Below are positions 26,489 through 56,864 of a stretch of 57,048 nucleotides of DNA, in pieces. The position numbers and the translations under genes were made by a program. Location of the stretch: positions 1 to 57,048 of the forward strand of contig PKUA01000067.1 in NCBI GenBank assembly GCA_002868905.1, given 5' to 3'. Source of the stretch: Desulfuromonas sp. GTDB taxonomy: Bacteria > Desulfobacterota > Desulfuromonadia > Desulfuromonadales > Geothermobacteraceae. Within the stretch, counting starts at the first letter, position 1, and the number at the start of each line of letters is the position of its first letter. Below the pieces are notes generated by a model. That model was not told the origin of the DNA and searched no databases. It saw only the letters and a list, made by a program, of their open reading frames with translations.

Positions 26489-28930
<2,442 letters not shown>

Positions 28931-51495: not shown

Positions 51496-53001
51496 TCAGT
51501 GCCTGGGTTTGACCGAAAAGGGATAATCGAGCCAATCCGCATCGTCATAATGGGCTCGACCGACGAGAGTGATAGGTTGATGACCCCGTTGCTTCATGCT
51601 TCCAACCGATGGGATTCCCATCGGGAAAAAGAAAAAGCGCTCGATCCTTTCACTGCCAGGTAAAACTCCCTGGCTGTCAAACAGGCTGATACTTTGTCCT
51701 CCTGACAGAGGGATCTGCTCAAGTAATTTGTAGGGAAGGAGTCGGTAGGTTCCGGTTCGCTCCAATTCAGGCTCTCTTTTCAGGAGGCGTTCAACCTGGT
51801 GCCACCCTGCATTGATGGCGATAGTCGGCTTGTGGCGTTCATCCCACTTCGGCAGGGTCTGGGCTAAGAGAGGATCGGGAGCCCATGGGACATCCCGTGA
51901 TTCAAGACCGGAATCAACGGCTGGAAAATATTGGAGATAGCAGCCGCAGTTGTTCATGACCTGCAACAGGAACGGTTGTCCCGAATCATCAATCGAAACA
52001 CCAATGGTCAGGCCGTCGAACGCGCCGTGTTCGAACCACGGGGTTTTCTCCCCGGTCCGTTCGGGGTACCAGTTGACATAGTTGATGCGTAAGAAGGGCT
52101 GTCCGGCGCGGAGTCCATGATCCAGGTAGTAATAGAAAGTTGGCTCTTCCGTTACGATATGGGGAGCGTTGCCATTGTGATCAACACGTCCCCACAGGTC
52201 GGCACCGGTTTCTTCCTGCTGGATGAGAGTCGGCGCGTAGGTTGCGGCCAACAGTTGAGCCTGGTGTTCATCCGGCAGAGGAACTCCCAGTGGGTTGCTG
52301 CTGGTTTGGCGAATGAGTTCTCCGGCCTGGGCCATTGACAGGGGGGCGTCGTCCATCAGGCTGTAGAGTCTCCAGTCTCCATCATTCAGAAGCTCGCTCT
52401 CGGGACGTTGCAGCCAGGATTCGCGTTCCTCATAAGCATCCACGACGGCAAGGGTAAAAACGGGGGCAATCAGCGGGTAGAGACCGAGAACCCGATAAGT
52501 CGTAGAGTAGTTATCCGGCACCTTAGCGTCTCTCAAGGCCTCGAGGAGTTGAGAGGGGTCGGTCAGATGATGACGTAGTAAAATTCGGGCTCCTGCCTCA
52601 TATTGCTCCAGAATGGAAGCCGTCGAACTGTTGTTGAGAGAGAGCCGATCGGCTAATTGGCTTTTGCTGGTTGAATCCAGACAGGAAATTTCACCAGCCA
52701 CGCTTTTGCTGTCGAATTCACGGGCCACTTTCAGAAGCAGGGCGAGAGTTTCTGCCGAGAGTGGATGGTTTGTTTGGCTCTGCCAGAAGCGGTTGAGTCG
52801 AAGGAAGGGAAGACCCGGAACCTGGTGGTAGGCGATGTTACGACAACTCTGGCTATCTATGATTTCGTGAATAATTGCGACGGAATCGCCTTCGTTCTCC
52901 AGGGGGGCTGGTCGCTGTGGAATTGTTCTTAAAGGAGTTGAACAGCCGCAGATTGAAGCGACTAACAGAGGGAGGAAAAACGTGAACAGAAAGAATTTCA
53001 T
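51496..53001 (-). CDS. unknown lipoprotein
   Basis: 501 residues from ATG 53001 (AGGGGG upstream). Signal peptide with lipobox I-C-G-C, acylated Cys at 20. The mature part contains segments such as SLMDDAPLSMAQAGELIRQ, FYYYLDHGLRAGQPFLRINY and NAGWHQVERLL that suggest a compact enzyme-like domain, but I do not recognise the family. It follows the FXD gene by 56 bases on the same strand and could be co-transcribed. Surface or periplasmic location is inferred from the signal. Confidence 0.8.
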   Translation of the reverse strand: MKFFLFTFFLPLLVASICGCSTPLRTIPQRPAPLENEGDSVAIIHEIIDSQSCRNIAYHQVPGLPFLRLNRFWQSQTNHPLSAETLALLLKVAREFDSKSVAGEISCLDSTSKSQLADRLSLNNSSTASILEQYEAGARILLRHHLTDPSQLLEALRDAKVPDNYSTTYRVLGLYPLIAPVFTLAVVDAYEERESWLQRPESELLNDGDWRLYSLMDDAPLSMAQAGELIRQTSSNPLGVPLPDEHQAQLLAATYAPTLIQQEETGADLWGRVDHNGNAPHIVTEEPTFYYYLDHGLRAGQPFLRINYVNWYPERTGEKTPWFEHGAFDGLTIGVSIDDSGQPFLLQVMNNCGCYLQYFPAVDSGLESRDVPWAPDPLLAQTLPKWDERHKPTIAINAGWHQVERLLKREPELERTGTYRLLPYKLLEQIPLSGGQSISLFDSQGVLPGSERIERFFFFPMGIPSVGSMKQRGHQPITLVGRAHYDDADWLDYPFSVKPRH

Positions 53002-53057
53002 GGTGCCGAACCCCCTCATTTCGGGATGAATTCAGTGCGCGAATCAGAAATGGACAG

Positions 53058-53264
53058 CTACTCCTCAGGTATCTTGAATACCTCCAGGACGCCGGGAAGC
53101 TGACGCAGTGAATCCTGGTCTATGTTGGCAGTTTCGCCGATCACTCCGAGAATGATCCTGTTAGCCCCGGTTGATTGGTGAAAATCGAAATCCCGATCGA
53201 CCAGGTACTGCTTGACCTGCTGCAACTGATTTTCATCGGCACTTTTGCTCATAACCACCAACAT
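53058..53264 (-). CDS. free-standing DAHP-synthase-type ferredoxin-like (FXD) domain
   Basis: 68 residues from ATG 53264 (GGGGAG eight bases upstream), ending in TAG. LVVMSKSADENQLQQVKQYL, then ANRIILGVIGETANIDQD and LPGVLEVFKI match the N-terminal FXD regulatory domain of type-I-beta DAHP synthases, which normally continues into a catalytic barrel. Here the barrel is absent and the next gene is a lipoprotein. It lies four bases after chorismate mutase, so the two are coupled. Either a trans-acting allosteric subunit or a remnant of a split aroF. Confidence 0.8.
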   Translation of the reverse strand: MLVVMSKSADENQLQQVKQYLVDRDFDFHQSTGANRIILGVIGETANIDQDSLRQLPGVLEVFKIPEE

Positions 53265-53268
53265 AGTC

Positions 53269-53541
53269 TTACTCCCCTTTGGATTTGGCTCGTTCCAGGC
53301 TGCGCGATTCATCGATCACCCGCTCAAAAAGCCTGATGATTGCCGCGTTGTCCAGCGGCCCGGAGTTCATGTCGCACATCCGCTTGAAGATACGTTTCTC
53401 GCGCTCCGGGTCGTAAATCGGTTTGCCGATATCCTTCTTCAGGTGGCCGATTTCCAAGGCCAATGCAGCCCGCCGATTGAAAATCTGCAAAAGTTCGTCG
53501 TCGAGGCGATCAATGGCAATTCGAATGTCGTCTATTGTCAT
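53269..53541 (-). CDS. chorismate mutase, AroQ class
   Basis: 90 residues from ATG 53541 (AGGA seven bases upstream). The helical AroQ pattern IDRLDDELLQIFNRRAALALEIGHLKK, then YDPEREKRIFKRM and AAIIRLFERVIDESRSLE, carries the usual Arg, Lys and Glu/Gln active-site residues. Converts chorismate to prephenate for Phe/Tyr synthesis. It lies 49 bases after nadB and four bases before the FXD gene. It stands alone, without fused prephenate dehydratase. Confidence 0.92.
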   Translation of the reverse strand: MTIDDIRIAIDRLDDELLQIFNRRAALALEIGHLKKDIGKPIYDPEREKRIFKRMCDMNSGPLDNAAIIRLFERVIDESRSLERAKSKGE

Positions 53542-53590: not shown

Positions 53591-55189
53591 TCAAAAGGGC
53601 CGGTGAAGTACCGTGTCACGCTTCCAGTGGGCATCATCCACGTTCGGGTAGTCGATGTTGAAGTGCAGCCCCCGACTTTCTTTCCGTTCCAGGGCGCAGC
53701 GTACAATCAGTTCGGCCACGGTGGTGATGTTGCGCAGCTCGATTAAATCGGAGGTGATCAGGAAATCCCAGTAGTAATCGGTGATCTCCTCCTGAATCAT
53801 TTTGATACGTCGGAGTGCTCTGACCAGGCGTTTGTTGGAGCGCACGATGCCGACGTAATTCCACATGCTGCGTCGGATTTCATCCCAGTTGTGGGCGACA
53901 ACCACTTCTTCGTCGCTGTCGGTGGCGTTGCCGCTGTCCCAGGGTGGGATGGCCGGAAAATCTTGAGGACAATCGGAGTATCTCTCAAGACAGCGCCGGG
54001 CACCGCGCTCGGCATAGACCACACCTTCGAGCAGGCTGTTGCTCGCAAGGCGGTTTGCGCCATGCAACCCGGAGCAAGAGACTTCGCCAATGGCAAACAG
54101 GTTGGGTAGATCGGTCTCTCCCCAACCATCGATCCGGACTCCACCGCAAAGGTAGTGTGCCGCCGGAACGACCGGTATCGGCTCGGTCGTGATGTCGATG
54201 CCATACGTGCGACAGGTCTCCGAAATGTGTGGAAAATGATTGTGGATGAAATCGGCCCCTTTGTGGGTGATATCGAGAAAGACGCAATCATCTCCGTGCA
54301 CCTTCATCTCATTGTCGATAGCGCGGGCAACGATGTCTCTGGGAGCCAGGTCCTTGAGTTGGTGATACTGTTCCATGAACGGAGTGCCGTCCTTGCGTTG
54401 TAGAACGGCCCCCTCTCCACGGACCGCTTCCGAAATCAGAAATGACTTGGCGTGCGGATGATACAGGGTGGTTGGGTGGAATTGCATGAATTCCATGTTC
54501 GAGACCGTAGCGCCGGCCCGGTAGGCCATAGCTACGCCATCGCCGGTCGCAACATCCGGATTGCAGGTGTAGAGGTAGACCTTCCCAGCTCCTCCTGTTG
54601 CAAGAACGGTAAAGCGCGCTCCAATGGTGATGATATCGTTGTCATTGATGTCGAGGATATAAGCGCCGAGGCAGCGATCAGGTCCGGCAACCTTGCCGGT
54701 TGCCTTGTGCGCCGTGATCAGGTCGATGGCGATATGATGTTCATGAATCGTGATGTTGGGATGGGCCAGGGCCGCTTCGACCAGGGCTCGCTCGATCTCC
54801 TGACCGGTCAGATCCTTGGCATGCAGAATACGTCGATGGCTGTGCCCCCCCTCGCGGTGCAGGTCGAAGCTGTCATCTTCGTTCCGGGTAAACTGGACTC
54901 CCCAGTCGACCAGGTCCTTGATGGCGTCAGGACCGGACTCGACGACCATTTTGACAATTTCGGAGTTGGAGAGATGCACGCCGGCAACCATGGTATCCTT
55001 GACGTGGTTGGCAAACGAGTCATCCTGGGAGATGACCGAGGCAATGCCACCCTGGGCCAGGTTGGTTGCTGTTTCCGAGATGCTTCGCTTGGTGACGACC
55101 GTGACAGCTCCTCGCTCCGCAACCTTGAGGGCATAGGAAAGGCCGGCAATGCCGCTGCCGATAATCAGGAAATCGGTGGTCCGTTTCAT
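53591..55189 (-). CDS. nadB: L-aspartate oxidase
   Basis: 532 residues. FAD-binding DFLIIGSGIAGLSYALKVAE, then TNLAQGGIASV, HREGGHSHRRILHA (catalytic region), EFMQFHPTTLYHP, GGVRIDGWGETDLPNLFAIGEV and the C-terminal helical domain with RNITTVAELIVRCALERKESRG. Oxidises aspartate to iminoaspartate, the first step of NAD synthesis; nadA and nadC are not in the window. Anaerobes of this group use fumarate or another acceptor instead of oxygen. Promoter at 55292-55320. Confidence 0.95.
   Translation of the reverse strand: MKRTTDFLIIGSGIAGLSYALKVAERGAVTVVTKRSISETATNLAQGGIASVISQDDSFANHVKDTMVAGVHLSNSEIVKMVVESGPDAIKDLVDWGVQFTRNEDDSFDLHREGGHSHRRILHAKDLTGQEIERALVEAALAHPNITIHEHHIAIDLITAHKATGKVAGPDRCLGAYILDINDNDIITIGARFTVLATGGAGKVYLYTCNPDVATGDGVAMAYRAGATVSNMEFMQFHPTTLYHPHAKSFLISEAVRGEGAVLQRKDGTPFMEQYHQLKDLAPRDIVARAIDNEMKVHGDDCVFLDITHKGADFIHNHFPHISETCRTYGIDITTEPIPVVPAAHYLCGGVRIDGWGETDLPNLFAIGEVSCSGLHGANRLASNSLLEGVVYAERGARRCLERYSDCPQDFPAIPPWDSGNATDSDEEVVVAHNWDEIRRSMWNYVGIVRSNKRLVRALRRIKMIQEEITDYYWDFLITSDLIELRNITTVAELIVRCALERKESRGLHFNIDYPNVDDAHWKRDTVLHRPF

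Positions 55190-56789: not shown

Positions 56790-56864
<75 letters not shown>

Follow-up and report, generated by a model that had tools for sequence, protein, structure and literature searches.

A solitary FXD domain encoded beside chorismate mutase, a candidate detached feedback sensor of aromatic amino acid synthesis

The small protein described here has a close known counterpart in the type I-β DAHP synthase of T. maritima (1rzm and 1vr6; chimera 4grs), with which it shares the Pfam domain, the predicted fold and the site residues. In the T. maritima enzyme the FXD domain is fused to a catalytic barrel, whereas in our locus it makes up the whole protein. Detached ACT subunits, such as IlvN/IlvH and the β subunit of aspartate kinase, are ferredoxin-fold sensors that are encoded apart from their enzymes. 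They belong to another domain family and another pathway, and the likeness is one of working principle; chains of such subunits appear among the weaker Foldseek and VIA-align rows for the FXD model. A further comparison is offered by the CM-DAHP synthase fusions, whose chains we take to come from Thermus, Geobacillus, Listeria and Bacillus. Chorismate mutase (CM) is tied to aromatic feedback in these fusions and in our locus, and the CM of our locus is nearest to their CM domains, but it is unfused, without a barrel, and has the FXD protein adjoining it. In Mycobacterium tuberculosis, an unfused small CM of the AroQ type borrows the allostery of its partner in a non-covalent CM:DAHP synthase complex, as described in a passage of PMC6435475. 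There the partner is a complete type II DAHP synthase, whereas the partner in our locus would be a domain on its own.

The arrangement itself is already on record. A short passage of a 2009 paper (PMC2700814), dealing with two species of Geobacter, describes the same stand-alone CM with an adjacent FXD-like protein (Gmet_1955/Gmet_1956; GSU1828/GSU1829). It proposes that this CM may serve tyrosine synthesis, and that it may be regulated by the adjoining protein, which it likens to the domain by which T. maritima DAHP synthase responds to Phe/Tyr. It also states, with the data not shown there, that the adjoining proteins of Geobacter cluster with the regulatory domains of one synthase. Judged by this published description, the Geobacter genes are very probably orthologous to our pair. 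The regulatory idea has thus been in print as a prediction since 2009, and our pair is a further case. Within the open-licence literature, the Geobacter pair was found named by locus tag only in PMC2700814, no paper was found under the name or number of PF18152, and no experimental test of CM regulation by FXD was found. New in the present work, which covers a broader set of genomes, are the class-wide presence of the pair, its constraint, the co-inheritance and probable co-transfer of FXD with CM, the presence of the solitary FXD in genomes without FXD-DAHP synthase matches, and the comparison of site residues.

Gene layout and identity of the two proteins

The window analysed here is a stretch of 57,048 nt, on the minus strand of which the genes run in the order nadB, CM, FXD. 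The unfused AroQ-type CM consists of 90 residues (PF01817; 53269..53541, minus strand). It is followed by a stand-alone FXD regulatory-domain protein of 68 residues (PF18152; 53061..53264, minus strand; stop codon 53058..53060), which starts 4 nt past the CM stop codon. The FXD start is preceded by a ribosome-binding site, AAAGGGGAG, read from the sequence and located within the 3' end of the CM gene (53272..53280, minus strand). Upstream of CM lies nadB, which encodes L-aspartate oxidase (PF00890, 326 bits; 53591..55189, minus strand) and which in the class probably shares one transcript with CM and FXD. The gene downstream of the pair encodes a 507-residue protein without a Pfam match (51496..53019, minus strand), so no DAHP synthase barrel follows FXD. 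Fusion of FXD to a catalytic barrel is accordingly absent from this 68-residue reading frame, and the profile matches and the measured gap confirm the initial annotation, which had described an FXD protein of this length, without a barrel, four bases after CM. The sole tRNA gene found in the window is a tRNA-Gly (gcc) on the plus strand (56790..56864). A scan for promoters and terminators gave counts close to the shuffle mean, and a plasmid search gave no match.

An alternative in-frame start at 53312 would extend the FXD protein to 84 residues. We favour the start at 53264, as it coincides with the beginning of the domain and as a Met codon occupies the same place in 53/53 loci of the order to which the source genome belongs (the FXD proteins of the order were cut at this conserved Met by choice, and the motif discussed below is present in each one). 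Three loci from the class (L185, L186 and L187) have Val at the start position, and their start codon is perhaps GTG.

The FXD protein matches PF18152 with 64.5 bits against a cut-off of 27, covering profile positions 1–65 of 67. Its AlphaFold2 model, obtained with 53 orthologues, adopts a β-α-β-β-α-β arrangement with a mean pLDDT of 90.3. The first eight rows of a Foldseek search with this model are T. maritima DAHP synthase or a chimera bearing its FXD (E 3.2e-5 to 1.6e-3). VIA-align superimposes the model on the T. maritima FXD with Z-scores of 11.5–12.6 and an rmsd of 1.6–1.9 Å over 67–68 residues, the next chain being a designed ferredoxin fold with a Z-score of 8.5. Profile and fold carry the FXD identity, since a search of the PDB by sequence alone gives only a weak match (E 0.33). 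The whole of the small protein corresponds to the regulatory FXD domain of type I-β DAHP synthases; in place of the stretch by which a fused FXD continues into the barrel, it has a short acidic end.

His29 and Ser31, which we take to be the tyrosine ligands of the FXD of T. maritima DAHP synthase, are both present in the T. maritima sequence and in all 53 solitary FXDs of the order. They form part of a run, H29, Q30, S31, T32 and G33, that is invariant in the same set (53/53). HQSTG also occurs in 19/19 loci from the class and from f47, a family of another class, and in 80/80 loci from named genomes, a set that overlaps with the other genomes and was partly selected by HQSTG. In the fused FXDs that were read, position 30 is Ile, Leu, Pro or Glu, and position 32 is Lys or Arg. 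Two types of fused FXD occur in the order: the A type has His29 but Ile31 (30/30), and the B type has neither His29 nor Ser31 (9/9), both counts referring to the sequences fetched, which are a subset of all A and B matches. Within the order, and as far as sequences were fetched, the solitary protein thus appears to be the only FXD with the full, ancestral-looking putative site. A general rule that the tyrosine site is kept by the solitary FXD alone was discarded, since H.S is present in 16/16 fused FXDs fetched from other parts of the phylum. Of these, two belong to f47 genomes, and the 16 were drawn from 29 listed fused matches that are themselves the most similar to the solitary form.

The CM of the window matches PF01817 with 85.3 bits (cut-off 27). 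Among solved chains, CM domains from CM-DAHP synthase fusions come closest to it (2d8d, E 3.6e-12; 5j6f, 3nvt and 5gmu), with E. coli CM (EcCM) ranking behind them. All NCBIfam CM equivalogs fall below their cut-offs, the best being TIGR01807 (68.1 vs 69.55 bits); TIGR01801 reaches 62.4 vs 106.35 bits. The catalytic residues of EcCM, as given in a passage of PMC5526877, are R11, R28, K39, D48, R51, E52 and Q88. When mapped via the alignment to 5gmu, six of these seven positions are kept in our CM, as R7, R24, K35, D44, R47 and E48. The equivalent of Q88 is Glu83, which lies just past the last aligned position and was assigned by extending the alignment without gaps, in 53/53, 19/19 and 77/77 rows (149 rows, partly overlapping). 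The other six residues are kept in all three row sets, except for an Asp-to-Asn change in one row in each of two sets. These rows were chosen by a motif that holds R24, at a loss of no rows in the first two sets and of one of 78 loci in the third. On the basis of these residues, the CM is probably active.

Distribution and joint inheritance of CM and FXD

All genome counts given here include the window's own genome. PF18152 matches were found in 57 of 58 genomes (our own and relatives), most of which have three; among the matches listed, two frames are usually of DAHP-synthase length and one is short. All 52 solitary-FXD loci fetched from relatives have CM directly upstream, with nadB before CM in 51 and the remaining locus ending at a contig edge. 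The pair that the initial annotation had regarded as stand-alone is therefore present as such in relatives, without a barrel in that place. A search of the order with a profile of the 53 solitary FXD proteins found one copy in 123/136 genomes, including 81 of the 84 of good quality, and one copy is likewise present in 192/200 genomes of the class that are at least 90% complete. Among the eight class genomes without FXD, G090 is interrupted there by a contig end, and G123 and G132 also lack CM. The last of these, a 99% complete genome of the order without solitary CM or FXD, is a candidate for a true loss of the pair.

In a scan of 394 genomes of the phylum, strong matches outside the class were confined to family f47 (10 genomes), and the 29 weaker matches listed are all frames of 337 to 420 residues. 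In named genomes, the order nadB-CM-FXD is seen in 77 of the best 80 of 399 loci, the other three being at contig ends. The records of these best 80 loci are titled Desulfuromonadales, Geobacteraceae and kin, unclassified Deltaproteobacteria and, in two cases, Desulfobacteraceae; named records of Geobacter, Geomonas and Citrifermentans show the same CM-FXD arrangement.

The association of the two genes is strict. CM was found in 124 and FXD in 123 of the 136 order genomes, and FXD without CM in none. The distance from CM stop to FXD start is 0–10 nt in 53/53 order loci. In 122 order genomes the two genes are on one contig and strand, with 4–22 nt between the end of the CM match and FXD in 121 and 150 nt in G125. 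In G058 they are on two contigs, and the CM match is 52 nt from the first base of its contig. Thirteen order genomes have no FXD match: 12 of these also lack CM, and in the thirteenth the contig ends inside the first FXD codons. Ten of the 12 genomes lacking both genes fall below 90% completeness, and co-absence from incomplete genomes is expected because the genes adjoin.

In family f47, CM-FXD is present in 10/10 loci. nadB was not seen upstream of the pair in any of the ten, most of which have about 1 to 1.5 kb of upstream sequence, and Pfam scans of 19 ORFs, selected from longer stretches around five f47 loci, found no shared neighbour and no nadB. Within the class, nadB was not seen in the stretch examined at one of nine loci (L184). 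A tree of joined CM and FXD sequences was built from 37 rows (18 of the 53 from the order, nine from the class and ten from f47). In this tree the f47 rows join families f22 and f24 of the class (support 98/97), and the class rows as a single clade are rejected (AU p 0.018, by a test that came after the FXD tree had already suggested this grouping of f47). The f47 rows form a single clade with a support of 63/90, and the bootstrap of the joined tree had not settled. Because the f47 pair is without nadB and is nested in a class branch, it is probable that CM and FXD were transferred and move together, as two genes.

CM and FXD were not seen as one fused protein at any of the loci read, which therefore offer no Rosetta-stone support. 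Open frames of up to 602 residues in f47 and other loci were considered as CM-FXD fusions and rejected, as CM lies in another frame and the long frame is a read-through artefact; the same applies to a 182-residue frame in G013. The f47 pairs L209 to L213 lie in differing neighbourhoods, with an enolase gene close to the pair in L213.

Aromatic-pathway genes of the source genome and the origin of FXD

The source genome (3.3 Mb, 99.98% complete) has three FXD matches, namely two full DAHP synthases, A (contig C38) and B (C24), and the solitary protein. Four of its proteins match PF00793: A, B, a type I-α protein on C75 and a protein encoded in the window (28129..28914, plus strand; 247 bits). 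By NCBIfam, three of the four are type I DAHP synthases. The C75 protein is a type I-α DAHP synthase without FXD (TIGR00034, 505 bits), so that a DAHP synthase lacking this domain, which the initial annotation had proposed to look for in relatives, does exist in this genome. The window protein is a KdsA-like relative of DAHP synthase, which from its sequence we read as KdsA and not as a further DAHP synthase. There are two CM_2 matches, the CM of the window and a CM-prephenate dehydratase fusion on C64 that adjoins a prephenate dehydrogenase-like gene, partial at the end of the stretch. The FXD site reads His29/Ile31 in A and Glu29/Ile31 in B; as far as these residues indicate, the inhibitors of the two synthases may differ from tyrosine or may have been lost.

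The six FXD pairs of lowest pS have dN/dS values of 0–0.05, three of them sharing loci L069, L070 and L083 and thus not being independent. The seventh-lowest pair has a value of 0.55 at similar pS. Over 192 FXD pairs the median is 0.27 and the maximum 0.55, while the median for CM is 0.23. We think that in the FXD pairs of higher dN/dS, pS is lowered by shared base composition and saturation. We base the case for purifying selection on the closely related pairs together with the invariant columns, which number 17 among the 53 order FXDs and include D27 to G33. A ribosome-binding site in the 3' end of CM was recognised by eye in most of the 53 order loci.

These observations bear on whether the FXD gene could be the remnant of a DAHP synthase that has lost its barrel. 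The two full FXD-DAHP synthases of the genome would suit such an origin, which is opposed by the single intact copy in 192/200 class genomes, by the near-zero dN/dS of the six lowest-pS pairs, and by the invariant motif and conserved start position. A remnant is scarcely credible in the light of these points, and we conclude that the solitary FXD is not one. Of the two signs of decay named in the initial annotation, a full FXD-DAHP synthase elsewhere in the genome is present, twice (C38 and C24), but the solitary copy is constrained and is not degrading. Its argument that an intact ribosome-binding site and coupling make decay unlikely is upheld by the spread of the gene, the dN/dS of 0–0.05 in the six pairs of lowest pS, the start position and the motif; its view of FXD as a real, coupled, stand-alone gene agrees with AAAGGGGAG, the class-wide presence and the constraint.

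A tree of FXD sequences (21 of the 53 solitary, or S, sequences, 12 of the 30 A, all nine B, the 16 other fused FXDs, 19 from the class and f47, and T. maritima) left S, A and B unplaced relative to each other, its columns being few and its bootstrap not yet stable. It neither confirms nor rejects the clustering stated in the passage of PMC2700814. The solitary FXDs form a clade with a long stem.

Candidate partners and mechanism

The reading of FXD as a detached feedback sensor that works chiefly with CM has, in our estimate, an even chance of being correct. The CM and FXD genes would then encode one functional unit, consisting of an unfused AroQ CM plus a separate sensor. As in T. maritima DAHP synthase, FXD would form a dimer around its ligand, an aromatic amino acid for which tyrosine is the likeliest candidate. 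Ligand-bound FXD would act on the CM made from the same message, such that the prephenate branch would be damped at high tyrosine, while the fused CM-prephenate dehydratase would serve phenylalanine. We infer the ligand, the partner and the direction of the effect from the comparisons presented here.

Genomes in which a fused FXD was not matched are informative about the partner. Solitary FXD is present in 8/8 good-quality genomes without a B-type match and in 6/7 without an A-type match, one of which is without both. This genome, G096 (98% complete), has CM and FXD. Two of its proteins match PF00793, one being a type I-α-like synthase by its N-terminus and frame length and the other a 279-residue protein taken as KdsA. 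G096 is the only genome without a match to either A or B, and assembly gaps could mimic it and similar cases. An FXD that served one FXD-DAHP synthase should vanish with that synthase, and it does not. CM is the likelier main partner, since FXD is kept without A or B matches and is strictly tied to CM. The adjacency of CM and FXD can also reflect co-expression only.

It is also conceivable that FXD works in trans as a DAHP synthase subunit (type I-β A or B, or type I-α), docking via FXD-FXD pairing, and would give tyrosine sensitivity or tether CM as in the mycobacterial CM-DAHP synthase complex. Such a role fits the solved relatives, which by sequence are all DAHP synthases or a chimera, as are the top fold matches. 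It also fits the full site, found in the solitary FXD and not in the fetched A (30/30) and B (9/9) sequences, and the nearest solved kin of CM, which are CM domains fused to DAHP synthase. It is harder to reconcile with the persistence of FXD in genomes without B, without A and, in one case, without either, with the replacement of the barrel lead-in by a short acidic end, or with the lack of a second FXD domain beside the pair in the loci scanned for FXD. We consider a DAHP synthase partner unlikely. The initial annotation had suggested a split regulatory subunit that joins CM to a DAHP synthase encoded elsewhere; the stand-alone, coupled gene supports one half of this suggestion, and for the other half CM is a likelier partner than DAHP synthase.

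Small ACT-like proteins have varied partners, and FXD might sense an aromatic amino acid and act on another target, for example the nadB product, TyrA, PheA or transcription. The adjoining position of nadB in the class (51/52 loci) is consistent with this. In f47, however, the pair is without a visible nadB in 10/10 loci and the 19 ORFs from five of these loci include no shared neighbour, so that the constant companion of FXD is CM; a target of this kind seems improbable to us. FXD could also be a structural chaperone that stabilises the CM dimer and has lost ligand sensing. A chaperone would agree with Q30 and T32, which do not vary among the solitary FXDs but differ from the fused FXDs read, and with the long stem of the solitary clade. 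The residues that we take to be the ligands, however, lie within the longest invariant run of FXD, which makes a loss of sensing very improbable.

To return to FXD as a sensor for CM, its most specific form, in which we have somewhat less than even confidence, is that FXD is a tyrosine-gated allosteric subunit that clamps CM and perhaps docks on DAHP synthase as well. The pair would then be a mobile feedback cassette, and could become the first example of a split FXD system with demonstrated function. The CM-FXD idea is directly testable with two small proteins. If it is true, the FXD feedback module of DAHP synthase is able to function as a separate protein and to be reassigned to another enzyme, and the pair would represent a compact natural example of allosteric module swapping. 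If FXD also docks on DAHP synthase, one small sensor would set both the entry to the pathway and its branch point. A regulatory role of FXD would fill a gap in the control of aromatic amino acid synthesis in Geobacter and its kin.
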